A stretch of DNA of 41,925 nt from a virus, in the IMG/VR virus record IMGVR_UViG_3300050821_004611, positions 1 through 41,925 of that record; one strand, 5' to 3'. A model generated the notes under the pieces. The model searched no databases. It was not told where the DNA came from and saw only the letters and a program-made list of their open reading frames with translations. Positions 6,784 to 37,539 of the stretch are shown here, piece by piece (the first letter of the stretch is position 1; the number at the start of each line of letters is the position of its first letter). Both the position numbers and the translations under genes were made by a program.

Positions 6784-6893
6784 GCGGACAAAACCTCCCA
6801 CTCCTTGGCGTTAGGTTGCTGCGGGGATCGCGAGTGAGAATAGCGATCTGCTGCACTGCTCGCAACCTGAAAATCGCGCGCGCCCGCGCGTCA

Positions 6894-6922: not shown

Positions 6923-6964
6923 TCCGACGCGCGCGCCGCTCGCGCGCCCGGTTCTTTGATTCTT

Positions 6965-7032: not shown

Positions 7033-7040
7033 GAAACTTA

Positions 7041-7417: not shown

Positions 7418-7422
7418 AGTCG

Positions 7423-8626: not shown

Positions 8627-8712
8627 AGCCCGAAGTATTCGCCAAGGCGTGCTCGGTCGGCCGCGACGTCGCCGTGATCGCCTGGGTGCTCTATTGGTTC
8701 GTGTCGCACTAA
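8623..8712 (+). CDS. Single-span membrane peptide, 29 aa
   Basis: GTG 8623 overlaps the upstream stop (GTGA) and the TAA overlaps the next ATG (TAATG). The C-terminal half (DVAVIAWVLYWFVS) is a membrane span. The tight coupling on both sides argues that this tiny gene is real. Confidence 0.55.
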   Translation: MKPEVFAKACSVGRDVAVIAWVLYWFVSH

Positions 8713-8942
8713 TGCAGCTCTCGAAAGACGAAGCCCTGCGAATGGCGGTCGCACTCGATACCGCGATCACGTGCATGGAATTTTCTTCGAACAATTTCCT
8801 GCCGACTGCCGTGACGCCATCCCTCGCCGAGAATTGCCTGATCCACCTGCGCGAGCTCCGCTCGGCCGCGCTGCGCGTTAACCGCCGCGATCCGGAGCCG
8901 GAGGAAATCGCACCTTACGATCCGTTTCAGGTGCACGGATGA
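8712..8942 (+). CDS. Small helical protein, 76 aa
   Basis: Starts in a TAATG overlap, ends in ATGA. Helical throughout residues 3-58 with a single Cys in each half, then an acidic tail (PEPEEIAPYDPF). Unrecognised. Confidence 0.65.
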   Translation: MQLSKDEALRMAVALDTAITCMEFSSNNFLPTAVTPSLAENCLIHLRELRSAALRVNRRDPEPEEIAPYDPFQVHG

Positions 8943-9145
8943 ACGCGCCGATCGTGCCCGACAGCGTGATCCTTCAGCTCGAGCTGACAGACGACCAGGC
9001 GCTCGCGCTCGCGCAGTTCTGTAAGCGCCTGTCGTGGTCGGAGTTCCGGCACAATGCGGTCAATGAATCGGAGGCCTATACCATCCGTACGGCGGTGACG
9101 CTGCTGCGTGAGGAATTGGCTTACAAGGGGTTTGCGCCGCGATGA
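8939..9145 (+). CDS. Small helical protein, 68 aa
   Basis: ATGA overlaps at both ends. The sequence is two to three helices with LTDDQALALAQFCKRL prominent; a similar small domain occurs in other phage early regions, but I cannot name it. Likely cytoplasmic. Confidence 0.65.
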   Translation: MNAPIVPDSVILQLELTDDQALALAQFCKRLSWSEFRHNAVNESEAYTIRTAVTLLREELAYKGFAPR

Positions 9146-9471
9146 GCGAAGATCGAACAGAACTCGATTTGGGACCCTGCTGCTGCTGTGGCAAAGCGCA
9201 GGACGGCACGGTGCGAACGCTGGTGATGCTGCCTTTCGAGGCACCGCGCGGCACGGTGGGCTGGGGCTGCGTTCAATGTCACGCGCCGATGCGCGGCGCC
9301 AATGCGATTGTCTGCGACGAGTGCATCGATCAGCACGGCGGGGATCTGCCACGATGGCTGAAGTGGATTCAGGGCGGCGAATATCCGAAGGATAAAATCC
9401 GCGTGCCGCTCAACGGCTTCGAGCGCGTACCCTTCGATCACAATCTTGAACTGCATCCGGAGGTCGCGTGA
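9142..9471 (+). CDS. Zinc-finger-like protein, 109 aa
   Basis: Cys13-16 (CCCC-GKA), CVQCH (about 44-48) and CDECI (about 59-63) give three Cys pairs in the first 65 residues, the pattern of a treble-clef or double zinc finger as in ClpX-type N-terminal domains. The rest is basic and Pro-containing. A protein- or nucleic-acid-binding adaptor role is plausible. Coupled by ATGA and GTGA. Confidence 0.7.
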   Translation: MSEDRTELDLGPCCCCGKAQDGTVRTLVMLPFEAPRGTVGWGCVQCHAPMRGANAIVCDECIDQHGGDLPRWLKWIQGGEYPKDKIRVPLNGFERVPFDHNLELHPEVA

Positions 9472-9623
9472 AAAAATCCAACGTCACCCGCCTCGAGCCC
9501 AAGCCGGCGCCGGAATTTCGGCCGCGCTTTACGCGCGAAGGCCTCGACAGCTTGATCAACGTTCTGGTGAACAAAACGGTCGCGAGCTTGCGAGCGCGCG
9601 AGGCCTCGGAACGAAAGAGATGA
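9468..9623 (+). CDS. Small basic protein, 51 aa
   Basis: GTG 9468 overlaps the previous stop; ends in ATGA with the next frame. Rich in Lys/Arg with one helix (about 24-51). No family. Confidence 0.55.
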   Translation: MKKSNVTRLEPKPAPEFRPRFTREGLDSLINVLVNKTVASLRAREASERKR

Positions 9624-9763
9624 TCGCCGTCCGCCATACCTTCGATCGCCTCGGTGCCGACCAGACCGGAACCGGTCATGCCGTACGTATCTATCCTTTG
9701 GCTCGCACTTCGCAGGGTCGCGGCTCATCTCACAACCGCGCCCGAAGTGTAGTCCCGGATTAA
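9620..9763 (+). CDS. Possible small protein, 47 aa
   Basis: ATG 9620 overlaps the preceding stop as ATGA, the operon's usual junction. The product is basic with low-complexity Arg/Ser at the end. Nothing else supports it, so it may not be a gene. Confidence 0.35.
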   Translation: MIAVRHTFDRLGADQTGTGHAVRIYPLARTSQGRGSSHNRARSVVPD

Positions 9764-9774
9764 AAGCAGCGCAA

Positions 9775-9803
9775 TTGCGGCGCAGCATTAAAGCTGCTAA
9801 AAT
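9775..9803 (+). promoter_or_regulatory. Sigma-70-type promoter for the RHH regulator and downstream operon
   Basis: TTGCGG (9775-9780) and TAAAAT (9798-9803) are separated by exactly 17 bp, matching the sigma-70 consensus at four of six and five of six positions. It lies in the only real gap of the rightward operon, 35 bp upstream of the GTG at 9838. Confidence 0.65.
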
Positions 9804-9837
9804 ACCCCTGTGTTCCAAATGCGGATGGGGTCTAACG

Positions 9838-10074
9838 GTGGCAGAAAAAATTAAACGTGGTCGCGGACGTCCGCCCCTCTCAGCAGAGCCGGGCGTGCGC
9901 TCGATGGTGCATCTGCCCGAAGAACTCACCGAGGATCTGCGCGCCGCCGGCGGCGGCTCCCTCTCACGCGGGATCATTCGCCAGGCCGCAGGCCATCCGC
10001 CCATTCAGACGCCGGCCCAGGGCCGAGCCCGCAAACGCGCCAAGGCACGCGCGGCGGCCGAGCCCAAGCCGTGA
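9838..10074 (+). CDS. Ribbon-helix-helix DNA-binding protein with AT-hook-like N-terminus, 78 aa
   Basis: GTG 9838 follows GGGG. Residues 6-12 (KRGRGRP) contain the GRP core of an AT hook. Residues 21-50 give one beta strand (RSMVHLP) and two helices, the Arc/CopG-type fold in which a strand dimer enters the major groove. The C-terminus is a basic Ala/Arg/Lys tail. It has its own promoter just before the recombinase genes, so it may regulate them or itself; that is inference. Ends GTGA. Confidence 0.7.
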   Translation: MAEKIKRGRGRPPLSAEPGVRSMVHLPEELTEDLRAAGGGSLSRGIIRQAAGHPPIQTPAQGRARKRAKARAAAEPKP

Positions 10075-10394
10075 GCACCTATACCTGCGAGGAATGCGGG
10101 CGCACCTTCGATAAGGGTGTCAGCGACGAAGAGGCGCACGCCGAACGGGTGGCAAATTTCGGCGAGGCCTTCGCCGACGACCTAGCCGTCATTTGCGACG
10201 ATTGTTACCTGGAGCTGCAGCAGAGAGCGATTGCCGTTGATGGCATCGTCGCAATTGCGGGGCAACCGGATCGTGAGGGAACCGTCCTCGATGCCACCGC
10301 GCTGCGCGCGCTCGCCGATGGCAAATTTCTGTTTTGGGAAGAAGCGCGGCAGGCGCTGATCTATCGCGGTCCGATGCTGGAGCAGAAGCCGTGA
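10071..10394 (+). CDS. Zinc-ribbon protein, 107 aa
   Basis: GTG 10071 overlaps the RHH gene. CEECG (residues 6-10) and CDDC (about 43-46) make a CxxC-CxxC zinc ribbon, followed by a helix and a mixed alpha/beta part. No further homology recognised. Lies between the RHH regulator and the possible recombination factor. Confidence 0.65.
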   Translation: MSTYTCEECGRTFDKGVSDEEAHAERVANFGEAFADDLAVICDDCYLELQQRAIAVDGIVAIAGQPDREGTVLDATALRALADGKFLFWEEARQALIYRGPMLEQKP

Positions 10395-10699
10395 CAGCGA
10401 CTAGACCTCCGCCGCGCTCCTGGGAGCTAAACACATGGCCAACAGAAATCTGGCCGCACACCAAAGCGCGAGGGCAATGGATCGGGCGCGCATACCGTAA
10501 GGAGCTGCTCGCCGCCGGCGCAATGACGCGCATCGGCATGAAACTCGTGTTCATCGGGGCCAAGTACGAAAAATGGCTCGAACGCCGCGCCAATCATGTC
10601 GTCGAGTTCCAGAGCAACAACCCGGCTCTCGGCAAGCGCGTCGCCAAGGGTTCGACGGAGTACGCGGCATTGGCAAACAGAATTATTACGGAAGATTAA
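10391..10699 (+). CDS. Possible excisionase/recombination directionality factor, 102 aa
   Basis: Start GTG 10391 (GTGA overlap); stop lies 3 bases before the serine recombinase ATG. The central block, roughly RIGMKLVFIGAKYEKWLERR, resembles the wing and last helix of MerR/Xis-type small DNA-binding proteins. Serine integrases need a directionality factor to excise, and such factors can lie next to the integrase gene. The family is too diverse to call by eye, so this is an inference from position and a short motif. Confidence 0.5.
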   Translation: MTATRPPPRSWELNTWPTEIWPHTKARGQWIGRAYRKELLAAGAMTRIGMKLVFIGAKYEKWLERRANHVVEFQSNNPALGKRVAKGSTEYAALANRIITED

Positions 10700-10702
10700 A
10701 AT

Positions 10703-12334
10703 ATGAAACGAGCCGCGACCTACGCCCGATTCTCCACCGACAAGCAGACCGAGACCTCAATCGACGATCAGCGCCGCGCCTGCAATGAGTACGCGAAGCA
10801 GAACGGCCTGAAAGTTGTCCACGAATTTGCGGACCTCGCGATCTCCGGAGCGAGCTTCGGCAATCGCCCGGGCGTCACGCAGTTGCAGAAAGCCGCCTTC
10901 GCCGGCGAGATTGACGTGATCATCATCGCGGATCTGACGCGCCTCTCGCGCAATAGCGCGGACCTTCCCAAGTTCCTCGAGCGCGTTCGCTTTCGCGGCG
11001 TGCGGGTGATCGGAGTACTCGACCGCTTCGATTCGGATCAGCGCCACTCGCGCATGCAGGCAGGCCTCTCCGGCATCATGTCGGACGAATACCGCGCGGC
11101 CGTCGGCGAGCGCGTGCACCTGGCGCTCGATACCCTCGCCAAGAACAGCAAGTCGACCGGCGGCGTCGCCTACGGCTATACCTCGACGCGGGTGAAGGTC
11201 CCGGATCAGGCCCGCATCGTCAAAGAAATCTTCCGCCGCATCGCCGCCGGCGAGACCATGAAAGCGGTGGTCTCGGATTTGAACGCGCGCGGCGTGCCCT
11301 CGCCCGGCTCGGTCTGGAAGCGCACGACCAACCGGCGCGACGGTCGGTGGCTGATCGCGACCTTGAACGCGCTGCTGCAGAACGAAATCTATATCGGCCG
11401 CGTGATCTGGAATCGCTCGCAGTGGGTAAAGGAACCCGACACCGGGATCCGCAAGCGCCGCGAGCGGCCGCGGAAGGAATGGGTGATCGACGAGCGCCCG
11501 GAACTCGCGCTCGTGGATCGGCCAACCTGGGACGCGGTGCATAAGCGGATGCAGGATCGCAAGGTCGGCCGGGTATCGCCCCAGGCGCGCAACCGCTATG
11601 CGCTGTCGGGCATTCTCGAATGCAAGATCTGCAGCGGCAGTTTCGTGATGTCGGGCGGCGGCAAGAACAGCCGCGGCTATGGCCGCGCCGGCCCGCGTTA
11701 CTACGTCTGCTCGACCTTCCACAATGGCGGCGTGAACGCCTGCACCAACGCGGTCCGCGTCGAGCGCGAGCTCGTGCAGGACTTGCTGGTGCAGCCGGCG
11801 CTCGACGAGCTGCTGTCGGAGGCGGCCGTGAACGCGGCCGTGATCCGTATCAAGCAGGCCATGAAGGACACGCCGCCGGCGCCGGTCGTGGACCTGACCG
11901 CAATTGAGGCCAAGATCGCCAAGATCCGCGCGCACGTCGCGAGCGGGGTACTGGATGCGGAGGACGCGGAGCCCGTGTTTGCCAAACTGGAAGCCGAGCG
12001 CCAGGCCCTCGTGCGCGAGGCGCAGCGCGCGGTCAAGGGGCCGCTCATCTCCGGGCCGTGGGGGGTCGAGGCGGAATACCGGAAGCAGGCGCAGCAAATG
12101 CGCGAGGACCTCACAGGGGAGGATGCGGACGCGGCGCGTGCCGCCCTGGTCGCCGCCTACGGCCCGCGCATTCCCTTGCGGCCGGACCCGACCGGGCGGT
12201 TCCTCATCGCGGAGACCGTCCTACAGGCCAATGTCGTCCTTCTGGCGTCCGGCTCCAACCTGGGTCGGATACGCGAGAGTAGCGGGGGGCCGCTATGTGC
12301 GCATATACCCCTGATTAGACGGGGGCAAAAATGA
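10703..12334 (+). CDS. int: Large serine recombinase (phage integrase), 543 aa
   Basis: The catalytic domain starts YARFS (Arg9, nucleophile Ser11) and has DLTRLSR at 77-83, the resolvase/invertase signature. A recombinase domain follows (about 155-275), then a zinc beta-ribbon with CKIC near 311 and a second Cys pair near YYVCSTFH...AC, and a coiled-coil region (about 390-450). Length fits large serine integrases, which insert phage DNA between attP and attB by double-strand breaks through a Ser-DNA link. It starts 3 bases after the previous gene and overlaps the next by ATGA, leaving no intergenic attP. Confidence 0.95.
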   Translation: MKRAATYARFSTDKQTETSIDDQRRACNEYAKQNGLKVVHEFADLAISGASFGNRPGVTQLQKAAFAGEIDVIIIADLTRLSRNSADLPKFLERVRFRGVRVIGVLDRFDSDQRHSRMQAGLSGIMSDEYRAAVGERVHLALDTLAKNSKSTGGVAYGYTSTRVKVPDQARIVKEIFRRIAAGETMKAVVSDLNARGVPSPGSVWKRTTNRRDGRWLIATLNALLQNEIYIGRVIWNRSQWVKEPDTGIRKRRERPRKEWVIDERPELALVDRPTWDAVHKRMQDRKVGRVSPQARNRYALSGILECKICSGSFVMSGGGKNSRGYGRAGPRYYVCSTFHNGGVNACTNAVRVERELVQDLLVQPALDELLSEAAVNAAVIRIKQAMKDTPPAPVVDLTAIEAKIAKIRAHVASGVLDAEDAEPVFAKLEAERQALVREAQRAVKGPLISGPWGVEAEYRKQAQQMREDLTGEDADAARAALVAAYGPRIPLRPDPTGRFLIAETVLQANVVLLASGSNLGRIRESSGGPLCAHIPLIRRGQK

Positions 12335-12729
12335 GCGCCAAGCGCCCTCGCCGCCCCAAACGCCCCCCGGGCCGCACGGTAACCAACCCCCCGGGGCCGC
12401 GCCGCTCTCAAGCCTTCCCAGGGGCTCCCAGGCCGGACCGGGGCAGTTCCCGGCGCCCCTCGCGTACTGCCAACGTCCATACAACGCCAGTACGCCGGCC
12501 CGGTTTCGCGTTTGAGACGGTCTGCATCGGCTGCAGCTGTACGGATAACCAGGCCTGCGTTTCGGACCTGGGAATGCCCTGCCATTGGGTCGCGGTCAAT
12601 GCGGAGCGGCTACGCGGCGTCTGCAGCGAGTGCGCCACGCGGATGTGCACCGCGCTTCTGGATGTGCATTCCCCGGATGCAGATTGGCCTCGGCCGAGCG
12701 ATGACCAGCGGCGGGAGATGGACCTATGA
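12331..12729 (+). CDS. Cys-rich phage protein with Pro/Arg-rich N-terminus, 132 aa
   Basis: The first 55 residues are basic, Pro-rich and probably disordered. The rest carries a Cys module widespread in phages: CIGCSCTDNQAC, then MPCHW and CSEC, likely binding zinc. The start overlaps the recombinase stop (ATGA). Function unknown; a C-terminal acidic tail follows the zinc module. Confidence 0.7.
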   Translation: MSAKRPRRPKRPPGRTVTNPPGPRRSQAFPGAPRPDRGSSRRPSRTANVHTTPVRRPGFAFETVCIGCSCTDNQACVSDLGMPCHWVAVNAERLRGVCSECATRMCTALLDVHSPDADWPRPSDDQRREMDL

Positions 12730-12962
12730 AGCCGGTCGCCTTTCCGCAAGCGACCGTGACCTTCGCCAAGGATCAGCCCGAGTACACGCCATTGCCCGCG
12801 CACGTCTCGCGGCAGGGCGTCGTGACCAGCTGCTGGGAGCTGACCACTGATGAACTGACGCGGCTGCTCGAGACCAAACGCATTTGGATTTCGCAATTGA
12901 CATTCGGCGATCCGCTGCAGCCGCAGATCCCCTCGGTCGACAAGCCGGACCTCACGACGTGA
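12726..12962 (+). CDS. Small hypothetical protein, 78 aa
   Basis: ATGA with the gene before and GTGA with the gene after. The middle (SCWELTTDELTRLLETKRIWISQLTFG) looks like helix-strand, as in small phage beta-grasp proteins, but I cannot assign it. Confidence 0.65.
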   Translation: MKPVAFPQATVTFAKDQPEYTPLPAHVSRQGVVTSCWELTTDELTRLLETKRIWISQLTFGDPLQPQIPSVDKPDLTT

Positions 12963-13222
12963 AGTCTTCGGAAGTGCCTCCGACGATCTGCCCCAGCTGT
13001 GGCAAGCGGCTCGATGGCGCCACGGACCCGTTGACGAAGGCGACGCCCAAGGAAGGCGATGTGAGCGTGTGTGCCTACTGCCAGAACATTGCCGTGTTCC
13101 GCGCCGATCAGACCTTGCGAGCGATGACCGCCCGCGAATGGGCGGAGATGCCCGCGACCTGCCGCAAGCAGCTCGAGGCCATCCAACTCGCCATCGACCA
13201 GTTTCCGCCACCAGGAGGTTAA
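12959..13222 (+). CDS. Zinc-ribbon protein, 87 aa
   Basis: GTG 12959 overlaps the upstream stop. CPSCGK (11-16) and CAYC (about 38-41) form a two-pair zinc ribbon; the C-terminal half is helical (LRAMTAREWAEMPATCRKQL). This pattern is common in small phage proteins of unknown role. Confidence 0.65.
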   Translation: MKSSEVPPTICPSCGKRLDGATDPLTKATPKEGDVSVCAYCQNIAVFRADQTLRAMTAREWAEMPATCRKQLEAIQLAIDQFPPPGG

Positions 13223-13224
13223 CC

Positions 13225-13794
13225 ATGAACGTTGAAAAACTCTCGATGGACAAAGACCAGGCGCGCGACCTCTATCGCCGCTACCAGGAAAGCCGCGCCG
13301 GCATGACGCCAAACGATCGCGCAATCGCCGCGATCTATAAACGCATCGCGCAAGGCAAGCTCATCATCCGCGCGCTGGCATCGATCGCGGCCGCCGGCCT
13401 CGGCGCGGACGGACTGCCGAAGCTCGCGATCATGCGCGCCGATATCCCCAAGGTTGCCTGCGCGTGCTATTTCAACGAGATTCGATTCGATGCGGTGCAC
13501 GGCAATGGCCGCGCCTTCCAGGGCTACGCGAAGGATCGATATTTCAAAGTGTCTATGCCCGGCGCAAGCAGCAACACGAGAAGCCGCGTGGCCAGCGTGC
13601 CGCTGATTCCGGTGCATCTGCGGCCGCGCAAGGCGCTAGGGCAATACCATGTTCTGTGGGAAGCGGATTGGAATCAGTATCCCGTCGATCCGTACCTGCT
13701 GCGGCGCTTCGGCCAGGATGCCTGGGTGGTTGTCGCGGCCTGGGATCTGACCGACGTCGAGCGCGCGGTCATGTCGACGCAGCTGCATGGCTGA
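13225..13794 (+). CDS. Hypothetical phage protein, 189 aa
   Basis: ATG 13225 follows a strong AGGAGG. An N-terminal helical segment (1-75) precedes an alpha/beta core with VPLIPVHLRPR, YHVLWEADW and a DPYLLRRFG...VVAAWDLT ending; I recall related uncharacterised phage proteins with these blocks. No catalytic residues are obvious. Its last 8 bases overlap the HNH gene. Confidence 0.7.
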   Translation: MNVEKLSMDKDQARDLYRRYQESRAGMTPNDRAIAAIYKRIAQGKLIIRALASIAAAGLGADGLPKLAIMRADIPKVACACYFNEIRFDAVHGNGRAFQGYAKDRYFKVSMPGASSNTRSRVASVPLIPVHLRPRKALGQYHVLWEADWNQYPVDPYLLRRFGQDAWVVVAAWDLTDVERAVMSTQLHG

Positions 13795-14479
13795 TGTTCC
13801 TAAGCGGCGCCGGCGGCGGTGGACGCGAAGCGACATTGCGATCGTGCGCCGCCGCTACCCGCACGAACCGACGCCACGGCTAGCAAGGGAATTGAAGCGT
13901 TCGATCTGTAGCTTGTACGGATTGGCCACGAAGCTCGGTCTGCACAAGAGCGCGGACTATATCGCCCGCAAGCGCGCCGTCGAGCGCAAGCGCCTCAGCC
14001 GCAGCGGCGTCGCTTATCGATTCGGTATGGGCCATGTGCCCGCGAACAAAGGCATGCGCCGCCCTGGCTGGTCGCCAGGACGCATGGGCGAAACCCAGTT
14101 CAAAAAGGGCCAGCGATCCTGCACGTGGATGCCGATCGGCTCCTACCGAATCACGCACGATGGCTATCTGCAGCGGAAGATCTCGGACACTGGCTACCCT
14201 CCGCGCGACTGGGAAACCGTACATCGCCTGCTCTGGATCTCAGCGCACGGACCGATCCCACCAGGGCACAAGGTTGTTTTTAAATCCGGGCATGCGACCA
14301 CGGTGCTCGCGGAGATCACACTCGACGCGCTCGAGCTGGTGTCGCACGCGGAGCTGATGCGACGGAACAGCTATCACAATAATTACCCGAAAGAGATCGC
14401 GGAAGTCATCCGGCTGCGCGCGCAGGTGGTACGGCAAATCAACCGAAGAACGGGGGCTCAGCATGAAAAACAAAATTGA
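13787..14479 (+). CDS. HNH endonuclease with N-terminal helix-turn-helix, 230 aa
   Basis: Residues 1-55 form a basic stretch plus a SANT/HTH-like domain ending KLGLHKS, as in a family of phage homing-type HNH nucleases. The nuclease half has ETVHRLLWISAHGPIPPGHKVVF (His and Gly-Pro-Ile-Pro-x-Gly), a later ELVSHAELMRRNSYHNNYP with the final Asn/His residues. Such enzymes nick or cut DNA and often behave as selfish elements. It overlaps both neighbours and may have inserted into the operon. Which residues are catalytic is inferred from family pattern. Confidence 0.8.
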   Translation: MADVPKRRRRRWTRSDIAIVRRRYPHEPTPRLARELKRSICSLYGLATKLGLHKSADYIARKRAVERKRLSRSGVAYRFGMGHVPANKGMRRPGWSPGRMGETQFKKGQRSCTWMPIGSYRITHDGYLQRKISDTGYPPRDWETVHRLLWISAHGPIPPGHKVVFKSGHATTVLAEITLDALELVSHAELMRRNSYHNNYPKEIAEVIRLRAQVVRQINRRTGAQHEKQN

Positions 14480-14720
14480 GGATCTCCGCGACCACTTGTT
14501 CGCGACGCTCGAAGCACTGCGCGACAAGGAAAAGCCCATGGAAATCGAGCGCGCGCTCGCCATCTCGGAAGTTGCTAACTCGATCATTGAATCGGCCAAG
14601 GTTGAGGTCAAATTCCTGGACTTGGTCGGCGGTAAGGGCTCTGGCTTTGTAGGCGACGCCGCTACGCTCCCGGATACGCGCACGCCGAAGGACGCTGCGC
14701 TGCCGCGGCTGGTGAAATAA
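14463..14720 (+). CDS. Small conserved phage protein, 85 aa
   Basis: ATG 14463 overlaps the end of the HNH gene by 17 bases. The sequence is helical (DHLFATLEALRDKEKPMEIERA...VANSIIESAKVEVKFL), a type I recall from many proteobacterial prophages near ParB-like genes. It may pair with the downstream DNA-binding protein, but no function is established. Confidence 0.7.
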   Translation: MKNKIEDLRDHLFATLEALRDKEKPMEIERALAISEVANSIIESAKVEVKFLDLVGGKGSGFVGDAATLPDTRTPKDAALPRLVK

Positions 14721-14724
14721 ACTT

Positions 14725-14907
14725 ATGAAGCTGCGCTGGCCATGGAGCAAGAAACCGGCGCCGGTGGCCATTCCGCCCTACGTGCCGCCCGTGCGCGAGC
14801 CTGCGAAACCGGAGGAGACCATGGTGGTCGAGGAACACGACACATCGGCCATGACGCAGACGGGCGTGCACAAAGCCTGGAAGCGGCTCACGGACAGAAC
14901 CCCATGA
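14725..14907 (+). CDS. Small Pro-rich protein, 60 aa
   Basis: Starts 4 bases after the previous stop, ends ATGA with the ParB-like gene. Basic/Trp N-terminus (KLRWPWSKK) and a Pro-rich linker; likely disordered or membrane-peripheral. No family. Confidence 0.6.
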   Translation: MKLRWPWSKKPAPVAIPPYVPPVREPAKPEETMVVEEHDTSAMTQTGVHKAWKRLTDRTP

Positions 14908-15662
14908 CCAGCTGGCGCAACCGCATTGTGGCCAGCGGCGAGGCGGATCCGGCCGCGATCACCGACAACCCGCTCAATTGGCGCGTGCACCCGAAAGTGC
15001 AGCGCGTGACGCTGGAAGACTCGCTCGACAAGATCGGCTGGATCCAGAAGGCGATCGTGAATCGAACCACGGGGCATCTGATCGATGGGCATCTGCGCGT
15101 GGCCTCGGCCGTGGCGCGCGGCGAGACCTCGATCCCGGTGGACTACGTGGAACTCACGCTCGAGGAAGAGAAAGCCGCTCTCGCCTCCCTCGATCCCCTG
15201 TCCGCCATGGCGGTGATGGACGGCGAGAAGTTGACCGAGCTGCTGCAGGACTTCGAGTTCGGCGGCGGCCCACTCGATCAGATGTTCGACGAGCTGCGCG
15301 AGCAGGCCGAAGGCTCAACGCTCGCGGCCGCGAGCAAGAATCCGGAAGGGATCTTGACCAAGGGGGCGCCGGTGGTCAAAGCGGTGATCGCGGTCAGCGA
15401 CATGAACCTGATCGAACGCGCGCTCGCCGCCAGCGGCAAACCCTCCCGGGGCGATGCGCTCCTTCACCTCTGCCGAGTATTTCTCCATGAAAAAGGACAA
15501 CACGACGCTGAACCTCAAAGCGTCGTTACGCTGGAGCCTCTTGAAAAAGATCCCGCGCCCGATCGTCCTCGAGACGCACGCGGGAACGGGGCAGGTGTGG
15601 AAGCGGGTGTACAGCGAGATAAGCCAGGGCGTCGCGTTCGACGAAAAACCCGCAAAGGCTGA
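14904..15662 (+). CDS. ParB/Srx-like nuclease-domain protein, 252 aa
   Basis: The N-terminal domain has the ParB/sulfiredoxin-fold motif GHLIDGHLRVASA (Asp61-Gly-His-Leu-Arg65) and ASLDPLSAM further on. In phages such proteins are usually linked to DNA methyltransferases or DNA transactions and not to plasmid partition. A second block (IAVSDMNLIERALAASGKPSRGDAL) is typical of the C-terminal region. The last 58 residues overlap the methyltransferase frame and look non-conserved (Arg/Gly/Pro), so the true C-terminus or an indel in the sequence needs checking. Confidence 0.75.
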   Translation: MTSWRNRIVASGEADPAAITDNPLNWRVHPKVQRVTLEDSLDKIGWIQKAIVNRTTGHLIDGHLRVASAVARGETSIPVDYVELTLEEEKAALASLDPLSAMAVMDGEKLTELLQDFEFGGGPLDQMFDELREQAEGSTLAAASKNPEGILTKGAPVVKAVIAVSDMNLIERALAASGKPSRGDALLHLCRVFLHEKGQHDAEPQSVVTLEPLEKDPAPDRPRDARGNGAGVEAGVQRDKPGRRVRRKTRKG

Positions 15663-16164
15663 GCTCGTCGCTATTCAGCGGCCGACCTGGAGCGTGTTCG
15701 AATCCGACTGCATCGAGAGCCTGCGAGCCGGCGCCGGCGAGCACCTGGCCATCAATCTGATCGACATCGATCCTTATGGCGAACCCTGGCCTGTGATCGA
15801 GGCCTTCTTCGCCTGGGAGCGGCCCTGGCCCGATCGCATCGGCTTTGCGGTCAACGACGGCGTGCGCATGAAATTGAAAATCACCGGCGGCTGGGACGTC
15901 GAATCCTTAAAGCCGGCGGTCCAGCACTTCGGCAACTCCGCCATGTATGGCGAGTATCTGCAGGTGGCGCGCTGGAATTTGAAGCGCCTCGCGGCGGTGC
16001 GCCAGTACGAGCTCGCGCATTGGACCGGCTACTACTGCGGCCACGGCGACTGCATGACGCACTACGCCGCGGTGTTCGACCGATTCGACAAGCCCTCATC
16101 GTCATCCTCGTCGCCCGCATCATCGTCGTCATCATCGCCGGGGCCTACGGCCGCCGGCGGCTGA
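15487..16164 (+). CDS. Class I SAM-dependent methyltransferase-like protein, 225 aa
   Basis: Motif I is LETHAGTGQ (28-36) and the catalytic-region motif is DIDPYG (93-98), followed by ITGGWD and CGHGDCMTHYA near the end. DIDPYG resembles tRNA guanine-N2 methyltransferases (Trm1) more than DNA amino-methylases (DPPY), so the substrate is open. Starts: ATG 15487 (chosen) or 15454; both lie inside the ParB-like frame. The last 24 residues are mostly Ser/Pro and overlap a convergent gene. Confidence 0.75.
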   Translation: MKKDNTTLNLKASLRWSLLKKIPRPIVLETHAGTGQVWKRVYSEISQGVAFDEKPAKAELVAIQRPTWSVFESDCIESLRAGAGEHLAINLIDIDPYGEPWPVIEAFFAWERPWPDRIGFAVNDGVRMKLKITGGWDVESLKPAVQHFGNSAMYGEYLQVARWNLKRLAAVRQYELAHWTGYYCGHGDCMTHYAAVFDRFDKPSSSSSSPASSSSSSPGPTAAGG

Positions 16165-30283: not shown

Positions 30284-30495
30284 CGGTGTTCCGCTCCCCC
30301 CTCGCCACCCGGCGGGAATGCCGGCAAAGGTCGTGGCGAGGGTGCGGCCGTAGCCGCTGGCGGCTTCGTGGTGGTGTATGAAATAACGATAGCCGATTTT
30401 TTCTTGGCGCGCATGCGCGCCTCGACGGCTTCGAGCCGCGCGCGGATCGCGGCCGGCAGATGGGCGCGCACCTTGGCACAGCCGCCGCAGCTCAT
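30280..30495 (-). CDS. Small hypothetical protein, 71 aa
   Basis: ATG 30495 is chosen for its ATGA overlap with the connector gene. MSCGGCAKVRAHLPAAIRARL: an early CxxC, then a basic helix, then a Pro/Gly-rich tail. Similar Cys-Gly-Gly-Cys peptides occur between connector genes of other phages, with no known role. Confidence 0.6.
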   Translation of the reverse strand: MSCGGCAKVRAHLPAAIRARLEAVEARMRAKKKSAIVISYTTTKPPAATAAPSPRPLPAFPPGGEGGAEHR

Positions 30496-30980
30496 ACGCC
30501 CATCCCGATGCGATAGGGAAAGAGCATCGATTCGGCCGTGCTTTGGATCAGCTCCCAATTATCGACGTTGCGGTCGAACAGCAGCTCGATCTTGAGCAGG
30601 ATCGCTGCCTTGACGTCACGGCGCAGCGGCTTCGCGTCGTCGCGCAGAATCGGATTGTTCGCCCAGTAGTTGCGCCAGGTTTTCTCATCCCAGCCTTCCC
30701 AACCCTCGACCCCGATCACGCCGTCGGGCCCGGGCCACGTCGCCGGCGGCGACCAGGTCGGGGAATCTTTCGGGTCGGGCAGCGGCGTCGCCTCAGTGTC
30801 GGCCGGGGAGTTCAGCTCGAGCAGCTCGCCCAAACTGCGCGACGTGAAATTCTCCGCCCAGTCGATCGCGGCGCCGATCAGCAATTCGATCCTGTCGTCA
30901 TGAATCTTGAGATCGTCATCGATCGACAGCTGCTCTTTCGCCTCGGTGAGCGAGATGTAGGGGTTCGCCGGACTGCTCAT
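30492..30980 (-). CDS. Head-tail connector protein (gp6-like adaptor), 162 aa
   Basis: ATG 30980 overlaps the upstream stop. The family start PYISLTEAKEQLSIDDDLKIHDDRIELLIGAAIDWAENFTSRSLG and the C-terminal KAAILLKIELLFDRN helix match HK97 gp6-type adaptors that dock below the portal. The middle carries an extra Pro/Trp-rich insertion (about residues 65-105) that most family members lack. Confidence 0.85.
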   Translation of the reverse strand: MSSPANPYISLTEAKEQLSIDDDLKIHDDRIELLIGAAIDWAENFTSRSLGELLELNSPADTEATPLPDPKDSPTWSPPATWPGPDGVIGVEGWEGWDEKTWRNYWANNPILRDDAKPLRRDVKAAILLKIELLFDRNVDNWELIQSTAESMLFPYRIGMGV

Positions 30981-31705
30981 CGATAGTGCTCCTTGATCCA
31001 CGCATGCTTACGTTGCATCAGCGGATTCCAGGGGTCCACGTGGCCGTGCATGATGACGATTTTCGCGGTCGTCGGCAGCATGCCGCCCTGCGGCGCGATC
31101 TGGTTGCGGTAGGAATATACGCCGTCGCGCGCCGTAAACTTCGCTTCGTTGGGTCCCAGGCAGGCGCCGATCCAGGCTTGATCGGAGCCGATGTACTTCA
31201 ATTTCAGCCCCAAGAGCGGCGAGACCCGGGGATCGAATTGCTCCCACAGCTGGGTGCGGGTGCCGGCGGTGTGCTGGATCAGCGAGCCGTTATAGGGCGT
31301 GCCGCGGGCGGTGTCGCCGTACATTTTGAAGTCCACGCCAGAAGCGAACATCGGGGTGATATCGCCGCAGATAACCACATCAAGATCAATGCTGACAAAG
31401 CGAGGAGCCAGGATCGTCGCCGCCTCGCGCGAGAACATCTTGAGGCGACGATAGCAGCTCGGACTTCCGCGGCCGTGCGGGCTCGGCACGTTCGCGTAAT
31501 CTGACCAAAGTTTAACGGTACGGACATAGGGCGAAATTCCCGCAGCATCGTCGGTCACGCAGACCAGTTCGAAGGGCGCATGGTAGTGCCGCTCGAGCAT
31601 CGAGTGCAGCACATTCACCGTCGCGGCCGCGAACACCGAGCGGTAGCCCGGCGGCGGCTTCCACTTCCAGCATACGAACGTGAGCGGGCGCGATCCGTTG
31701 ATCAT
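30977..31705 (-). CDS. Glycosyltransferase (GT8-like/GT-A fold), 242 aa
   Basis: ATG 31705 overlaps the next glycosyltransferase (ATGA). TFVCWKW starts a nucleotide-sugar-binding strand; SIDLDVV at 105-111 gives the DxD metal motif (DLD 107-109), followed by GSDQAW and MHGHVDPW-type blocks. It would transfer a sugar from a nucleotide donor in the cytoplasm. It is the last gene of the sugar cassette and its stop overlaps the connector start, so it is co-translated with head genes. Substrate unknown. Confidence 0.75.
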   Translation of the reverse strand: MINGSRPLTFVCWKWKPPPGYRSVFAAATVNVLHSMLERHYHAPFELVCVTDDAAGISPYVRTVKLWSDYANVPSPHGRGSPSCYRRLKMFSREAATILAPRFVSIDLDVVICGDITPMFASGVDFKMYGDTARGTPYNGSLIQHTAGTRTQLWEQFDPRVSPLLGLKLKYIGSDQAWIGACLGPNEAKFTARDGVYSYRNQIAPQGGMLPTTAKIVIMHGHVDPWNPLMQRKHAWIKEHYR

Positions 31706-32439
31706 GGATAGATCTGCCGATAGGGAAACTGCAGGCGCAGCGGCCGCCACTCGGGATCCAGTTCGCGAATCAATTTGATGCGCCGGACGGCGCCGTGATC
31801 CTCCGGCGCCCCCTTGCGCTGGTAGGTCGTGGTCGAGGCATCGGGAATGACCTCGCGCGGCACGCGGATCAGGGCGGCCGTCAGCATCTCGACGTCGGCC
31901 GCCTTGACCACGCGATCGCGAAAGTCCGCGTCGGTCCCGTAATGGCCGGCGAAGCGCTCATCGTAGCCGCCGATCTTCTCGTACAGGTCGCGCGTGATCA
32001 GCCAGCTATTCGGGTGCGGCTTGTAGGGCGTCGTGACCAGCGCGGCCCCGGCCTGCGGCGGGCTCATGAGCGTTTCGCGCGAGAAGCGGTAGACGGTCGA
32101 CGGCGAGAGTTTGCGGCCGAGAATCCGGCCGAAGGTTTCCGGCGGGATCAGGTGATCCATGTCGGTGAGGAGCAGCCAGCGGGTCTCGGCGTGGTAGGCG
32201 CCGATGTTGCGCGCCGCGTCTTGATTCCAGCGCACGTCGACCCCGATCCGAAAGATCGACAGCGGACAACCGATTTCCTCGCCCTGGGCCTCGCCATCCG
32301 GCGATCCGTCATCGACCACAATGACCGCCAGGGCGGCCTTGAGATCGCGTGGCAGCGCCCGCAGGCGCTCGAACTGCACGCGCAGCATGCCGGGGTTCAT
32401 GTAATACGGCAGGCACAGCGTGAGCTTGCGCGGCTTCAT
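31702..32439 (-). CDS. Glycosyltransferase family 2-like, 245 aa
   Basis: GT-A features: LTLCLPYYMNPGML at the N-terminus, VIVVDDGSPDG (40-49), ARNIGAYHAE, TDMDHL with the DxD motif (92-95) and GGYDERFAGHYGTDADF. Two starts are possible: ATG 32439 (chosen) and ATG 32505, both preceded by CCGTGGAAC. Coupled to the GT8-like gene by ATGA. Likely a polymer or surface glycan transferase; donor and acceptor unknown. Confidence 0.82.
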   Translation of the reverse strand: MKPRKLTLCLPYYMNPGMLRVQFERLRALPRDLKAALAVIVVDDGSPDGEAQGEEIGCPLSIFRIGVDVRWNQDAARNIGAYHAETRWLLLTDMDHLIPPETFGRILGRKLSPSTVYRFSRETLMSPPQAGAALVTTPYKPHPNSWLITRDLYEKIGGYDERFAGHYGTDADFRDRVVKAADVEMLTAALIRVPREVIPDASTTTYQRKGAPEDHGAVRRIKLIRELDPEWRPLRLQFPYRQIYP

Positions 32440-32554
32440 GGTTCCACGGGTCCGGCCGAACGCCGATAAGTGGCTGATTCGGTTCGAATAGACATAAAAA
32501 AACATGGATGTTCCACGGAACGAATCACGCTTCGGCGTAGACCGGCCTGTGCGA
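32440..32554 (-). promoter_or_regulatory. Largest gap inside the sugar cassette
   Basis: This 115-bp spacer is one of the few real gaps in the late unit. It contains CCGTGGAAC twice on the minus strand (one before each possible start of the GT2 gene), a GTTCC-GT-GGAAC palindrome (around 32509-32520) and a T7 run. It may hold a leader or weak terminator; I see no clear promoter. Confidence 0.4.
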
Positions 32555-33175
32555 CTACAGCACAGGGCATGCGGCCGCCTCGAGTCCGACTCGGTTGATG
32601 CGCGGGAACGGCAGATGGACGGTCATGCCGCCCGTGGTCGCGACGAAGGTGCGGATCCCGGCCGCGCGCAGCTTGAGCGCGGCGCCCTCGAACTGGGTCG
32701 ACCAGACGGCGAGGCGCGCGATCCCCGTGGAGTGGCCCGACCAGGGATAGGGCGGAAACCAGTGCGCCTGGCCTTTGGGCCCGCGCTGCATGTCGAAGCC
32801 CACGAGGTAAAGCTCGCACGGCCGCAGTTGGTACGCCAGGTTGAGCGCGCAGAAGCCCGAATGCGTGCCGTTGAGGGTGCCCGGGACCTCCGACAGGATG
32901 GTCGAGGTGTGGTCGTTCTCGAACGGCGTGACCCAGGGCGCATCGGACACATCGAGATTGATCAGCGTCTTGCGCCGCAGCCAGGTGGGCTTGCGCCGGC
33001 CGCGCAGCTGGTCGAAGCGAAACTCCGCCCAGAGCCGATCCATGGAGACGATGATATCGACGTGCGGCAGCAGCAGGCCCGCGTCGTTCACGCCAATGAC
33101 GGTGCCGGGAAGCTTCGACAAATCAAATTGCGATGCCGACCAGCCGCCGGCGACGATCGTGATGGGCCCGTTCAC
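32555..33175 (-). CDS. DUF115-like (MptE-like) protein, 206 aa
   Basis: GTG 33175 overlaps the methyltransferase stop (GTGA). A Rossmann-type start ITIVAGGWSAS, then GVNDAGLLLPHVDIIVSMD, and HSGFCALNLAYQLRPCELYLVGFDM resemble the DUF115/sialyltransferase-like fold, also seen in the frame at 35945-35292 with the parallel SGYQAISLA...LLLGFDF block. Members are linked to sugar (nonulosonate/flagellin glycan) metabolism or transfer. Which reaction it does here is unknown. Confidence 0.65.
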   Translation of the reverse strand: MNGPITIVAGGWSASQFDLSKLPGTVIGVNDAGLLLPHVDIIVSMDRLWAEFRFDQLRGRRKPTWLRRKTLINLDVSDAPWVTPFENDHTSTILSEVPGTLNGTHSGFCALNLAYQLRPCELYLVGFDMQRGPKGQAHWFPPYPWSGHSTGIARLAVWSTQFEGAALKLRAAGIRTFVATTGGMTVHLPFPRINRVGLEAAACPVL

Positions 33176-33837
33176 TTCGCCTCGAAGTGGTGGGTCTCGA
33201 CCTTGATCCCGTAATAGATCATGCCGCGATGCTCGAACGCGGCGTGCAGCGAGCGCATGTAGTGATAGTGCTGCTCCGCTTCCGCATCCGAGCCGAGCCT
33301 GGCGCGGCGGCCGCCGCGGACGTCGACGAAGAGCTGGGTATGCTTCGGCGTGCACGCGGAGAGCACCAGATCGAGATACCGCTCGGGCTCGACGTGAAAA
33401 CACCACGACTTGAAGCTCACGATCAGATCGTACTGGCGCACCACATGGGCATGCGCATCGTTGGCATCGATAAAATCGAAGTGCGTCACGCCGTTCATCA
33501 GCAGAAACTGTTTCGCGGTATCCATGTGGTTGAAGGTGACGTTGTGCCGCGAGACTTCGGGCGGATCGTCGACACCGTCGAGCAGTGTCACCTGACACTC
33601 GCCGCCGTAATGCTCATTGAGCAGCGCATCGATGCCGCCGAGGCCTGAGCCGACGTCGAGGATCGAGCGGCACGTCGCCGGCAGATACGGCTCGATCAAG
33701 CGGAACTCGGAATAGAGCACGTCGATATATTTTGCGCACCAGGTGCCCGGATCGCCCTTCATGTCATCGAGTGCACCCCGCTGCAGCACCAAGTAGGGAT
33801 AAGCGTCGCGCGAGATGTTGAGCGATTCGATGTTCAT
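33172..33837 (-). CDS. Class I SAM-dependent methyltransferase, 221 aa
   Basis: Motif I is ILDVGSGLGG (59-68), followed by an acidic motif II strand VTLLDGVDD and a VSFKSWCFHVEPERYLDLVL region. Typical small-molecule or sugar methyltransferase layout, with an N-terminal helical lid (1-55). Start ATG 33837 overlaps the upstream stop (ATGA). Its place amid glycosyltransferases suggests O-methylation of a sugar, an inference. Confidence 0.8.
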   Translation of the reverse strand: MNIESLNISRDAYPYLVLQRGALDDMKGDPGTWCAKYIDVLYSEFRLIEPYLPATCRSILDVGSGLGGIDALLNEHYGGECQVTLLDGVDDPPEVSRHNVTFNHMDTAKQFLLMNGVTHFDFIDANDAHAHVVRQYDLIVSFKSWCFHVEPERYLDLVLSACTPKHTQLFVDVRGGRRARLGSDAEAEQHYHYMRSLHAAFEHRGMIYYGIKVETHHFEAK

Positions 33838-34025
33838 CGCCGTTTTTTTTCGACCACTTCGCGCATCCATTCGGCCGGGACGCACTCCTGGAGGCCACGA
33901 CAGAACAGCGTCTCCACCACTTCCTCCGGCGTGTCACCCGACAATCCGCGGGCCAGCAATCGCTCGACATACAGGCGCCGAGCGGGGCCGAGATGGAGCG
34001 TCACTTTTTTGGGCATGCGGCTCAT
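33834..34025 (-). CDS. Small protein, RHH-like, 63 aa
   Basis: ATG 34025 overlaps the upstream stop and its own stop overlaps the methyltransferase start (both ATGA). One strand (KKVTLHLGP) followed by two helices (RRLYVERLLARG; TPEEVVETLFCRGLQECV) fits a ribbon-helix-helix DNA-binding fold, odd for a place between sugar genes. It might regulate the cassette or be a fortuitous fold. Confidence 0.55.
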   Translation of the reverse strand: MSRMPKKVTLHLGPARRLYVERLLARGLSGDTPEEVVETLFCRGLQECVPAEWMREVVEKKRR

Positions 34026-35194
34026 GGTTTGGTGGCCAGGATCGTGACGTCTTTTCCGCCGGTATCGCCGATCACCTCTACCCCCGCCCAGCCGCATGCC
34101 TCGAGCTCGGTTACCCACCAGTCGGCCGGGTGAATCGACAGATGCGCATTGCGGCCGTCGGGCAGCAGCGCATTCGCGGCCCGCGTACAGATCACGAAGT
34201 AACCGACCTTGCCCGTGATGCGCCACAGGTGATCGAGCACCGCGGTGAGCTTGTCGGGTTCGACGTGCTCGAGCACATCGGTGCACACCACGAGCTCGCA
34301 GGGCTTCGGCATGGTTGCGCGCTCCGGGATCCCGGGGTCGTAGCCTGAGACGCGGATCGGCGCCAAGGCCAGCGCCAATCTGTTCTCGCCGCAGCCATAA
34401 TCCAAAATCGTTTTCGGATGATAGCGATCGATGAGCTGGCGCACAGCGACAGCGTGCTTGAGGCCATCTGCGCCCCAGCGGCGTTTCGCATGCAGGAGCT
34501 CGAGCTGCGTGCGATACGCCGGCGAGGTCAAATCATCCTGCCCGTAGCGATAGGCGCCGGCGTGTTTCATGAACATGCCGATGTGGCCCAGGTCGATCGC
34601 GTGGATCCCTTTCACCGAGAGCCGATACGCGAGCACGGTGGCCGTGGTGCCCAAGCACAGTAAGACCCGAGCGCTCGTTTTACCGATCTCTTCCTCGATC
34701 CGATCAATCTCCGCGTAGGCATGCTGGCGCGGTCCGATCACCTCACGCACCGAGAGTGCTTCGGTGCCGATCATGTCCGTCGTGATCGATTTTTTGTCGC
34801 CGGAGACCAGGACGATCTCGGCGCCGCGCCAGAGCCCATGCACCCTCGCCCAGTAGTCCGGGCGATCAATCCACGGCGCATTATCGGGGCGCGTGATGAA
34901 CGCGCTCCCGTAAGTCTTCGCGCCGCAGTACTTGACGTATTTTTCTTCCGTGTATCGCATCCAGCTGACCTTGCGCGGGCAGCCGTTGAAAATATTCGGC
35001 AGGCATACGACGCAGCCGTTGGGCCGCAGCAGGATGTGCTGCAGCTCGCGCGACAGCGCGACGTCCGGACGCTGCGAGGTGCAGCCGCCGCCGACCGCGC
35101 AGCGCCATTCGCCATCGCCGAAACGTGCGATCGATTTGGTCGCCGCGATATCGAGCGTCAAGTCTTCGGAGAGTATTTCCGGATACTTTTTCAC
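34022..35194 (-). CDS. GT-D (DUF1792-like) glycosyltransferase fused to a SAM methyltransferase, 390 aa
   Basis: Residues 1-210 resemble the DUF1792/GT-D glucosyltransferase domain: SIARFGDGEW (21-30), LPNIFNG, AFITRPDN, LVSGDKKS, LGTTATVLAYRLS (181-193) and IDLGHIGM. After a linker, residues 250-390 are a class I methyltransferase: ILDYGCGENRLA (263-274), VSGYDPG, VVCTDVLEHVEPD. GT-D enzymes extend O-glycans on serine-rich adhesins in streptococci (known). A single chain that adds a sugar and methylates it, perhaps the end cap, is my inference. Confidence 0.75.
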   Translation of the reverse strand: MKKYPEILSEDLTLDIAATKSIARFGDGEWRCAVGGGCTSQRPDVALSRELQHILLRPNGCVVCLPNIFNGCPRKVSWMRYTEEKYVKYCGAKTYGSAFITRPDNAPWIDRPDYWARVHGLWRGAEIVLVSGDKKSITTDMIGTEALSVREVIGPRQHAYAEIDRIEEEIGKTSARVLLCLGTTATVLAYRLSVKGIHAIDLGHIGMFMKHAGAYRYGQDDLTSPAYRTQLELLHAKRRWGADGLKHAVAVRQLIDRYHPKTILDYGCGENRLALALAPIRVSGYDPGIPERATMPKPCELVVCTDVLEHVEPDKLTAVLDHLWRITGKVGYFVICTRAANALLPDGRNAHLSIHPADWWVTELEACGWAGVEVIGDTGGKDVTILATKP

Positions 35195-35292
35195 GACTTG
35201 CCGAAGCCGACCAGGATCGAGCGGATCACATTGGTCGCGAAAATAAAGAGCGTCACGGCGCCGCCGGCGAGGAGCGAGGCCGCGATGAGCAT
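35191..35292 (-). CDS. Single-span membrane peptide, 33 aa
   Basis: ATG 35292 overlaps the upstream stop (TGATG) and its stop overlaps the next start (ATGA), which argues for translation. One hydrophobic span (LIAASLLAGGAVTLFIFATNVI) with a basic C-terminus. Possible membrane anchor for the sugar enzymes; unproven. Confidence 0.5.
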   Translation of the reverse strand: MLIAASLLAGGAVTLFIFATNVIRSILVGFGKS

Positions 35293-35945
35293 CAGGAATC
35301 GCACAGCACGTCCTCGATCGCCTGGCGCGGAAAACACGTGAGCGAGGTCTTGCGGCTGCAGTTGATGATCGTGATCCCGGCTGCCGCGGCGTCGGCCGCC
35401 AGTCGATTCATATGCGCCGTCCAGCGGCCGAAATACGCGCCCCCGTTGCTCAAGCCCTTCGGATGATCGCCGTGCCAGTGCGACTTGCCGCCGGAGCGCG
35501 CGAAATCGAACCCCAGCAGCAGAATCCGCGCGGCGCCAAAGAGGCAGGCGAGTGAAATGGCCTGGTAGCCGGAATTGCTGCCCTGATGGATCAGCGTCGG
35601 ATCTTTCGAGAGGCCGGGTCGATCCATGCCATAGATCCAGTGCAGGTCGAATTGATCGCGAGCGCGAGCGCTCACGGTCCACTTCTCGCCGCGGAACGTG
35701 CGCGAGACCTCCGCGAAGTAGGCGATCCACCACGTGATGTCACACGCATACAGCACATCCGCCCACGGCGCGCGCCGGAAACTCGTGTTGATGACTATCG
35801 TTTTGCATCGGCCTTGGACGTGGTTGCAGTCCGCCGCCGTAAGGCTCGGCCCACTCGCGATAATGCAGACGGTGTCGCCTCGCCAGCGGCCAGCGGGTCC
35901 GCCGTACTTGGCGCCGCCGGCGGCGGCGGCTCGGCCGGCGGGTCT
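35292..35945 (-). CDS. DUF115-like protein, apparently reached only by -1 frameshift, about 217 aa beyond the site
   Basis: The conserved domain starts VCIIASGPSL (Rossmann loop), then DVLYACDITWWIAYF, NSGYQAISLACLFGAARILLLGFDFARSGGKSHWHGDH and a TCFPR ending. The frame has no ATG, GTG or TTG between its last upstream stop (about 36090) and this domain; the first GTG (35756) lies inside it. A -1 shift at GGGAAAA (35951-35945) in the upstream gene puts it in frame, predicting a 281-aa fusion. A rare start codon or an indel are the alternatives. Confidence 0.68.
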   Translation of the reverse strand, partial: RPAGRAAAAGGAKYGGPAGRWRGDTVCIIASGPSLTAADCNHVQGRCKTIVINTSFRRAPWADVLYACDITWWIAYFAEVSRTFRGEKWTVSARARDQFDLHWIYGMDRPGLSKDPTLIHQGSNSGYQAISLACLFGAARILLLGFDFARSGGKSHWHGDHPKGLSNGGAYFGRWTAHMNRLAADAAAAGITIINCSRKTSLTCFPRQAIEDVLCDS

Positions 35946-36192: not shown

Positions 36193-37539
36193 CTAGTGCG
36201 TGCTTTCACCGGCGGGAATCGCGCCATAGACGATGGCGGCCGCGCGCGTCACCGCGAGACCCAAGCGTTCCTCGAACAGGATGCTCACCATGTTGCGGAC
36301 GAAGTTGTCCTGATCCTCATTCGATACGAGGATCTGCGCCTGCTCGCGATCGAACAGCGTCGCGGCCAATTTGAACGCGCCCACCAGAAAATCGCCGGGC
36401 TCCATGGAGAACCCTTGCACCACGGGCAGACCCCAGAGCATGCCGGGCGTCGACTGCGACGGGCTCGCGATCATGTACCGGCCGAAGCTATCCTTGGTCA
36501 GTTCCAAATCGTGCCAGTCGGTCGGGCTCATGACGATGCCGGTGCAGGGATAGAACGCCAAGTTGACCTGCAACATCGCGTGGCGGATCACATCGATGCG
36601 CGTGTCGGTCGGGCGTGCCCCCAAGTTGCTATAGGGCGTCGCCTGCGGAACCAGCCCCAGCAAATGATCGCCGGTGCCGTCGCCGAACAGGATTTCCTGT
36701 TCCTCCTTGAGCTTCAGCCCGAACGTGCCGCGGCCGTTGATCAGCGTCATCAGTTGCTTGAAGTCCGCGAGGATCTGCTTCGAGGCCTTGAACCAATGCG
36801 CGATGGTGCGGATCGGAATGCTCACCCGGTCGTAGGTGATATCGGACTGCGGCTTGAGCGCCCCTTCCGAGACTACCGACGCGTTGTTGGTGAACAGTGT
36901 TTCCTTGACCCACTCGATCAGGTTGGTTTCGGTCGTGCCGACGTCGAGCAAATCGCGCATCGTCAACGGCTGAAACGGTGGAATGACCGGCGTCGGGAGG
37001 AACTCCGGAAACGCGCCGGCGCCGCCCGAGCCCAGGTTGCTGATGATGGTCTTCGTCTGGAACGGCTTCATGGTCGAGCGCAGCGAGCTCGCGCGGGTCG
37101 CGAATTCTTTCCATTGCTCCGACTCGATCACCTGCTCGCCCAAGGACTTGGCGCGACCGCCGCCCGGACCGATCTTGCCCGAGAGAATTTTTTGCTCGAG
37201 ATCGAGCAGACGTGCATCGTTCGCGGCCTTCTCGGCTTTGAGCGTCTGGAACTCGGCGATCAGTTTGCCGCCGTCGGTGTTGAGCTTCGCGACCGCCTCT
37301 TTGACGCCCTCCTGGACGCTGCCGTAGGTTTTGATGTCGTCCTCGAGCTTCTTCATGACCTCGGTGACTTTTTTACCGTGCGCTTCGAGCTCGGTTTTGA
37401 TCGCGGCCTTGAGCGCATCCGCCGACGCGGAGTCGGCCCGCGCCACGGGACCGGAATAAAAATAGCTGTCGGTTTCGAGCACGCGGCTCGTCGCCATATC
37501 GATCACGCCGCGCGTGATGATTCTGCGGGGAAGATTCAT
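36193..37539 (-). CDS. HK97-type major capsid protein, 448 aa
   Basis: Residues about 40-135 are a charged coiled-coil (the scaffold-like delta domain removed by the protease), ending near KSLGEQ. The capsid core follows, with WVKETLFTNNASVVSEGALKPQSDITYDRVSIPIRTIAHWFKASKQIL typical of the E-loop/N-arm region and P-domain. It assembles the icosahedral shell. Start ATG 37539 follows GAGG. The gene is set off from its neighbours by gaps of 11 bp (upstream) and 56 bp (downstream). Confidence 0.95.
   Translation of the reverse strand: MNLPRRIITRGVIDMATSRVLETDSYFYSGPVARADSASADALKAAIKTELEAHGKKVTEVMKKLEDDIKTYGSVQEGVKEAVAKLNTDGGKLIAEFQTLKAEKAANDARLLDLEQKILSGKIGPGGGRAKSLGEQVIESEQWKEFATRASSLRSTMKPFQTKTIISNLGSGGAGAFPEFLPTPVIPPFQPLTMRDLLDVGTTETNLIEWVKETLFTNNASVVSEGALKPQSDITYDRVSIPIRTIAHWFKASKQILADFKQLMTLINGRGTFGLKLKEEQEILFGDGTGDHLLGLVPQATPYSNLGARPTDTRIDVIRHAMLQVNLAFYPCTGIVMSPTDWHDLELTKDSFGRYMIASPSQSTPGMLWGLPVVQGFSMEPGDFLVGAFKLAATLFDREQAQILVSNEDQDNFVRNMVSILFEERLGLAVTRAAAIVYGAIPAGESTH

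Follow-up and report, generated by a model that had tools for sequence, protein, structure and literature searches.

A small protein encoded just behind the capsid gene of a siphophage is very likely continued, by -1 ribosomal frameshifting, into a domain that its predicted structure and sequence place near the MptE, Maf, and sialyltransferase glycosyltransferases. The gene pair lies in an IMG/VR viral sequence of 41,925 nucleotides, the whole of which we refer to as the window; we call the small protein p1 and the domain reached from it DUF115a. Such a frameshift would join a glycosyltransferase-like domain to a protein of the head module; in the open-licence papers searched, we found no earlier description of this arrangement and no report of a p1-DUF115 frameshift.

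The 41.9-kb window carries an HK97-type head module on the minus strand and a serine-type integrase on the plus strand. Most of the scanned early genes (2477-16164, plus strand) are without a Pfam or PHROG match, the exceptions being the integrase (10703-12334), an HNH endonuclease, and a ParB-like/methyltransferase-related protein. All of the glycan-related genes that a sequence-only reading had placed between the capsid and connector genes, namely, those for GT8-like and GT2 enzymes, two DUF115 proteins, a methyltransferase, and a GT-D/methyltransferase fusion, were recovered there on the minus strand by Pfam and PHROG matches (Table 1). The coupling overlaps that it described are also in place (TGATG at 35292, GTGA at 35194, ATGA at 34025, ATGA at 33837, GTGA at 33175, ATGA at 31705, and ATGA at 30980), except that DUF115b and GT2 do not overlap and are separated by a gap of about 115 nucleotides; the 44-aa ORF at 32570-32436 is probably no gene. 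The small membrane and ribbon-helix-helix (RHH)-like peptides that it listed are present but particular to this lineage: the former is partially matched in a single relative (L004), and the latter has no match in the relatives or to a Pfam or PHROG family. An Rfam scan of the cassette region gave no match.

Table 1. Features of the head-module cassette in the window
Feature	Coordinates	Strand	Evidence and remarks
HK97-type major capsid protein, upstream flank	36193..37539	-	PF05065 1.1e-48, phrog_10
p1, small head-module protein, 113 aa	35795..36136	-	ATG with Shine-Dalgarno; first ~64 codons form the N-terminal part of the predicted fusion
Predicted -1 slippery heptamer G_GGA_AAA	35945..35951	-	In register with p1 codons CAG GGA AAA GAC
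DUF115a/MptE-like domain, -1 frame, without own start codon	35292..35950	-	phrog_4603 2e-55
DUF115a conserved domain	35888-35295	-	
33-aa predicted membrane peptide	35191..35292	-	TGATG overlap; lineage-specific
GT-D glycosyltransferase + methyltransferase fusion	34022..35194	-	PF08759 5e-29, PF13489 1.6e-8
60-aa RHH-like peptide	33834..34016	-	ORF with ATGA overlap; lineage-specific
SAM-dependent methyltransferase	33172..33837	-	PF13489 2.7e-6; kept in relatives
DUF115b, second MptE-like protein, own GTG start	32555..33175	-	phrog_4603 1.7e-15
GT2 glycosyltransferase	31702..32439	-	PF10111 4.6e-11; D93/D95 invariant
GT8-like glycosyltransferase	30977..31705	-	phrog_1962 5e-10; D107-L-D109 invariant
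Head-tail connector, downstream flank	30492..30980	-	PF05135 5e-7, phrog_40 2.3e-12

The one member of the cassette that does not behave as the ordinary gene it had been taken for is DUF115a. Its reading frame, open from 36095 to 35292, overlaps p1 (36136-35795) in the -1 relation and offers no ATG, GTG, or TTG codon ahead of the conserved ASGPSL motif (A at 35858), leaving p1 as the only evident way in. An in-register GGGAAAA, whose last base is 35945, is found at -93 from this motif, and a slip at 35951-35945 yields a computed p1-DUF115a fusion of 281 aa. The RNA downstream of this heptamer has a structure z score of -0.07. Elsewhere in the window, there is a typical tail-assembly-chaperone -1 frameshift (28616-28009, minus strand), with an A_AAA_AAC near 28353 that is in register just before the stop codon of the first ORF, the -1 frame being open beyond it.

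The same junction recurs across relatives. Homologues of DUF115a among the best 80 IMG/VR matches and in GTDB genomes gave 115 non-redundant loci; since p1 as a direct tblastn query had no match against phages, its relatives were gathered through their overlap with DUF115a and clustered at 75% identity into 62 clusters. Among the matches listed, the frame-0 ORF encodes a p1-family domain in 92 of the 115 loci, with DUF115 in the -1 relation, and in one (L060) that domain is in the third frame. In a further locus (L070), the p1 domain sits in the DUF115 frame itself, constituting a natural in-frame p1-DUF115 fusion, and a second such fusion (L093) was judged by eye. Among the 23 loci that lack a p1 overlap in frame 0, 18 have a normal start codon within 105 nucleotides of the motif; among the 92 that possess one, 8 do. 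Sequencing error was considered as a source of this frame relation and ruled out because the relation repeats in dozens of independent assemblies.

Heptamers of the form X_XXY_YYZ (Y being A or T) are present in the right phase in 30 of the 62 p1 clusters, whereas the wrong phases yield 2 and 6, and codon shuffling predicts only 3.9 ± 1.9 clusters (maximum of 11 in 500 shuffles). When Y is also allowed to be C, the right phase accounts for 37 clusters and the wrong phases for 3 and 7. The 25 clusters without any heptamer include 18 in which a C_CCY proline codon keeps almost the same position (8.0 expected), so that 7 of the 62 have neither. Moreover, substitutions among 23 close relatives are concentrated in the wobble positions of p1 upstream and in those of DUF115 downstream, with the switch occurring between -105 and -45 from the motif. 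Downstream RNA structure is weakly enriched (mean z of -0.8, n = 28). The absence of start codons, seen in 54 of the 62 clusters, does not exceed what codon shuffling predicts (55.6); hence, the case for frameshifting is built on the phase of the heptamers, the frame relation, and the wobble pattern. Rare non-AUG starts exist, and a near-cognate codon lies between the heptamer and the motif in 5 of the 30 heptamer-bearing clusters; both speak for DUF115a being translated alone, its overlap with p1 being incidental. However, that interval is devoid of NTG and ATN codons in the other 25, including the window, and an independent start would leave the phase-specific heptamers, the fixed -1 relation, and the in-frame fusions unexplained, making it a very improbable alternative to frameshifting.

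The AF2 model of DUF115a is of high confidence (pLDDT of 95.8). Its matches are MptE-like and DUF115 models, with viral sialyltransferase models lower in the list; the GT29 enzyme ST6GALNAC2 (TMq of 0.45, probability of 0.90) ranks below many weak Rossmann-type PDB matches. At the sequence level, the strong match is to phrog_4603. Although the fold resemblance and a match to PF01973 (MptE-like/DUF115) liken the domain to the MptE/Maf/DUF115 and GT29/GT42 folds, that match, at 24.3 bits, is below the family cut-off of 34.6, and a profile search against PDB sequences found no homologue. Across 63 diverse members, the GPS motif and the residues N34, D50, H137, and H142 do not vary. In GT42 enzymes, CMP is bound by similar GPSL and Asn motifs, and flagellin is glycosylated by Maf proteins; as a lead, the GPSL-type motif of DUF115a may be one shared with the MptE, Maf, and sialyltransferase (GT29/GT42) folds. 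We accordingly regard DUF115a as a putative glycosyltransferase-like domain of this kind.

The p1 family recurs immediately after the capsid gene, and by gene position alone p1 would be a head-module protein. In the window it matches no Pfam or PHROG family; its relatives match phrog_2616 and DUF7210/DUF7302. It is confidently predicted to form a small beta/alpha domain, for which no significant match was found among PDB sequences, and Foldseek returned only weak matches to YqbF (2hjq) and GINS (E > 0.1). Across the 62 clusters, the frame-0 tail of p1 contains 22% Ser and Thr versus 11% in the N-terminal domain or the third frame, a richness partly forced by overlap with the stretch coding for GPSL.

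The enzymes encoded beyond the junction have intact catalytic motifs and appear to be maintained. The GT-D domain exceeds the PF08759 cut-off (102 bits versus 27); the DMD motif of GT2, the DLD of GT8, the GDGE of GT-D, and the DYGCG of the methyltransferase are kept in 11 aligned relatives, in which the GDGE and DYGCG of the GT-D/methyltransferase fusion are invariant; and dN values of 0.15 to 0.26 against dS values of 0.65 to 1.0, similar to those of the capsid and connector genes, indicate purifying selection. By tblastn, the order capsid, p1, DUF115a, GT-D/methyltransferase, methyltransferase, DUF115b, GT2, GT8, and connector is found in many IMG/VR contigs. Conservation as a block, a check set beforehand, is borne out from capsid to connector: at least 20 of the 115 non-redundant loci, counting the window, carry the full set of five enzymes beyond DUF115a in the same order, which points to a unit rather than scattered morons; others have subsets of the five or a different order. 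Among the matches listed, the capsid gene lies directly upstream in all 80 of the p1 loci with enough sequence and the connector downstream in 65 of 71.

The slot between DUF115a and the connector is itself variable. It is empty in about a dozen loci and elsewhere holds GT2, DUF4422, or TOD1/MUCI70-type glycosyltransferases, FkbM and other O-methyltransferases, or a sulfotransferase. The earlier view that most siphophages have nothing between capsid and connector is thus partly wrong, a DUF115 gene being common there (D3 and many prophages); the idea that the cassette builds a glycan gains support, in that this variety of glycan enzymes in other phages argues for glycans being built as virions assemble. 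In some prophages and viral contigs (L137, L138, L136, L144, L058, L075, and L079), DUF115 is extended in frame by 300 to 470 aa; only in L079 is there a hint of what the extension is, a Glyco_transf_9 match below the cut-off. Phage glycosyltransferases can also hypermodify phage DNA (Pyle 2024, as cited in PMC12619734). Such a role for the cassette is extremely improbable, given the location of the genes in the head operon and the lack of a base hydroxymethylase or thymidylate synthase homologue among the window genes that were scanned (some of its ORFs).

Taking the above together, we favor, as fairly likely, a reading in which the frameshift-tethered DUF115a starts or anchors the glycosylation of a virion protein and the downstream enzymes elaborate the glycan. 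Some ribosomes would slip by -1 at G_GGA_AAA (35951-35945), giving a minority product with DUF115a on a p1 anchor; p1 would bring the transferase to the head as it assembles, and there DUF115a would start or transfer a glycan on a virion protein, to be extended and methylated by the GT-D/methyltransferase, methyltransferase, DUF115b, GT2, and GT8-like enzymes. We infer that the frameshift product is made, that p1 carries it to the head, that DUF115a transfers sugar, and that the acceptor is a virion protein; that the anchored transferase acts on such a protein and the downstream enzymes build on its glycan seems to us somewhat better than an even proposition. The layout thereby suggests that phages possessing it attach sugars to their own particles.

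The sequence-only reading had offered the host surface as a second target of the glycan. Seroconverting phage glycosyltransferases exist, and enzymes acting on sugars, like those of the cassette, could alter lipopolysaccharide or capsule late in infection and so prevent re-adsorption. However, the cassette encodes neither a flippase nor a large membrane enzyme, its one membrane product being the 33-aa peptide, and its genes are inside the head operon, the first being translationally tied to a head-module protein. This tie favors a virion target, and we consider host-surface modification rather improbable. A link to the virion is also supported by the PAJU2 homologue (ORF010, which has its own start), recorded as a structural protein. 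The same record would suit a DUF115a that merely decorates the head through the frameshift fusion, without catalysis, in the manner of Ig-like coat domains, the downstream enzymes doing something else; frameshifted coat extensions offer a precedent (PMC5009743), and lytic growth of P1 does not require its homologue PmgO (PMC10695390), which equally fits a non-essential decorating role for an enzyme. We judge this unlikely, in that a display domain would hardly keep the GPS motif and four further residues invariant over 63 members and the neighboring genes encode glycan enzymes. Returning to a catalytic DUF115a, one doubtful though possible elaboration is a counterpart of Gag-Pol, with many p1 copies bearing the Ser/Thr-rich tail and a few in which the glycosyltransferase replaces it. 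Both forms would dock on the head via the same domain, and the enzyme-bearing copies would glycosylate neighboring p1 tails or capsid subunits, the downstream enzymes elaborating the glycan of a self-decorating capsid.

Tail chaperones and coat extensions are the main known settings of frameshifting in phages, whereas the frameshift proposed here would bring an enzyme to the virion. It would also account for the wrong or missing annotation of a common head-module gene in D3 (orf7), phi1, phPA-G, and Psp6, and it provides a testable function for a large family labeled "sialyltransferase" or "hypothetical." Further, it suggests that many HK97-type phages glycosylate their virions.

The closest parallel in a cultured phage, in which the p1-DUF115 frameshift becomes testable, is Pseudomonas phage D3 (orf6.5/orf7), along with phi1 and phPA-G: between their capsid and connector genes, a p1-family gene is overlapped by DUF115 in the -1 frame, with a slippery C_CCA_AAG in D3 at the site equivalent to the window heptamer. 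In these phages the junction is annotated as two hypothetical genes, truncated, or absent, D3 orf7 and the phPA-G gene being annotated as starting after the motif and phi1 having no annotated gene between capsid and connector. Unlike the window, D3 has no glycan enzymes from orf7 to the connector, its methyltransferase (orf13) being further downstream. In Tetraselmis viridis viruses S20 and SI1, the stretch from capsid to head closure likewise encodes DUF115, GT-D, methyltransferase, GT2, and GT8, but these are only 30 to 50% identical and annotated as separate genes, with GT-D and methyltransferase separated. A tailed phage with a window-like head module (L018, NC_020840) is listed with the green alga Tetraselmis viridis as its host; the true host is probably a bacterium in the algal culture.

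As in the window, frameshifting in T7 (10B), T3, A2, and PSA gives a minority extended structural protein, but there the coat or tail protein itself is extended, by Ig-like or unrelated domains (PMC5009743), whereas the predicted extension in the window is glycosyltransferase-like. Mycobacteriophage Che8 and its relatives encode glycosyltransferases linked to covalent capsid glycans (Freeman 2023, as cited in PMC11256854); in Maravista, likewise of the F1 group, these genes are found outside the head module, close to the 3' end of the genome, and are not part of a frameshift fusion. Frameshifted coat extensions (PMC5009743) and, by the latter account, glycosylated phage capsids (PMC11256854) are thus each known, separately. 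Phage P1 (L173) may carry a related glycan operon, pmgN-pmgO-pmgP-pmgQ, in which two DUF115 proteins (PmgO and PmgP) and a glycosyltransferase likewise share one late operon; however, PmgO possesses a start of its own, and the operon does not adjoin the capsid gene. There, the small gene before pmgO, pmgN, scored as essential by CRISPRi, contradicting a deletion study (PMC10695390). Finally, the likeness to retroviral Gag-Pol is one of effect: frameshifting would keep the enzyme scarce relative to the structural protein and bring it to the particle.
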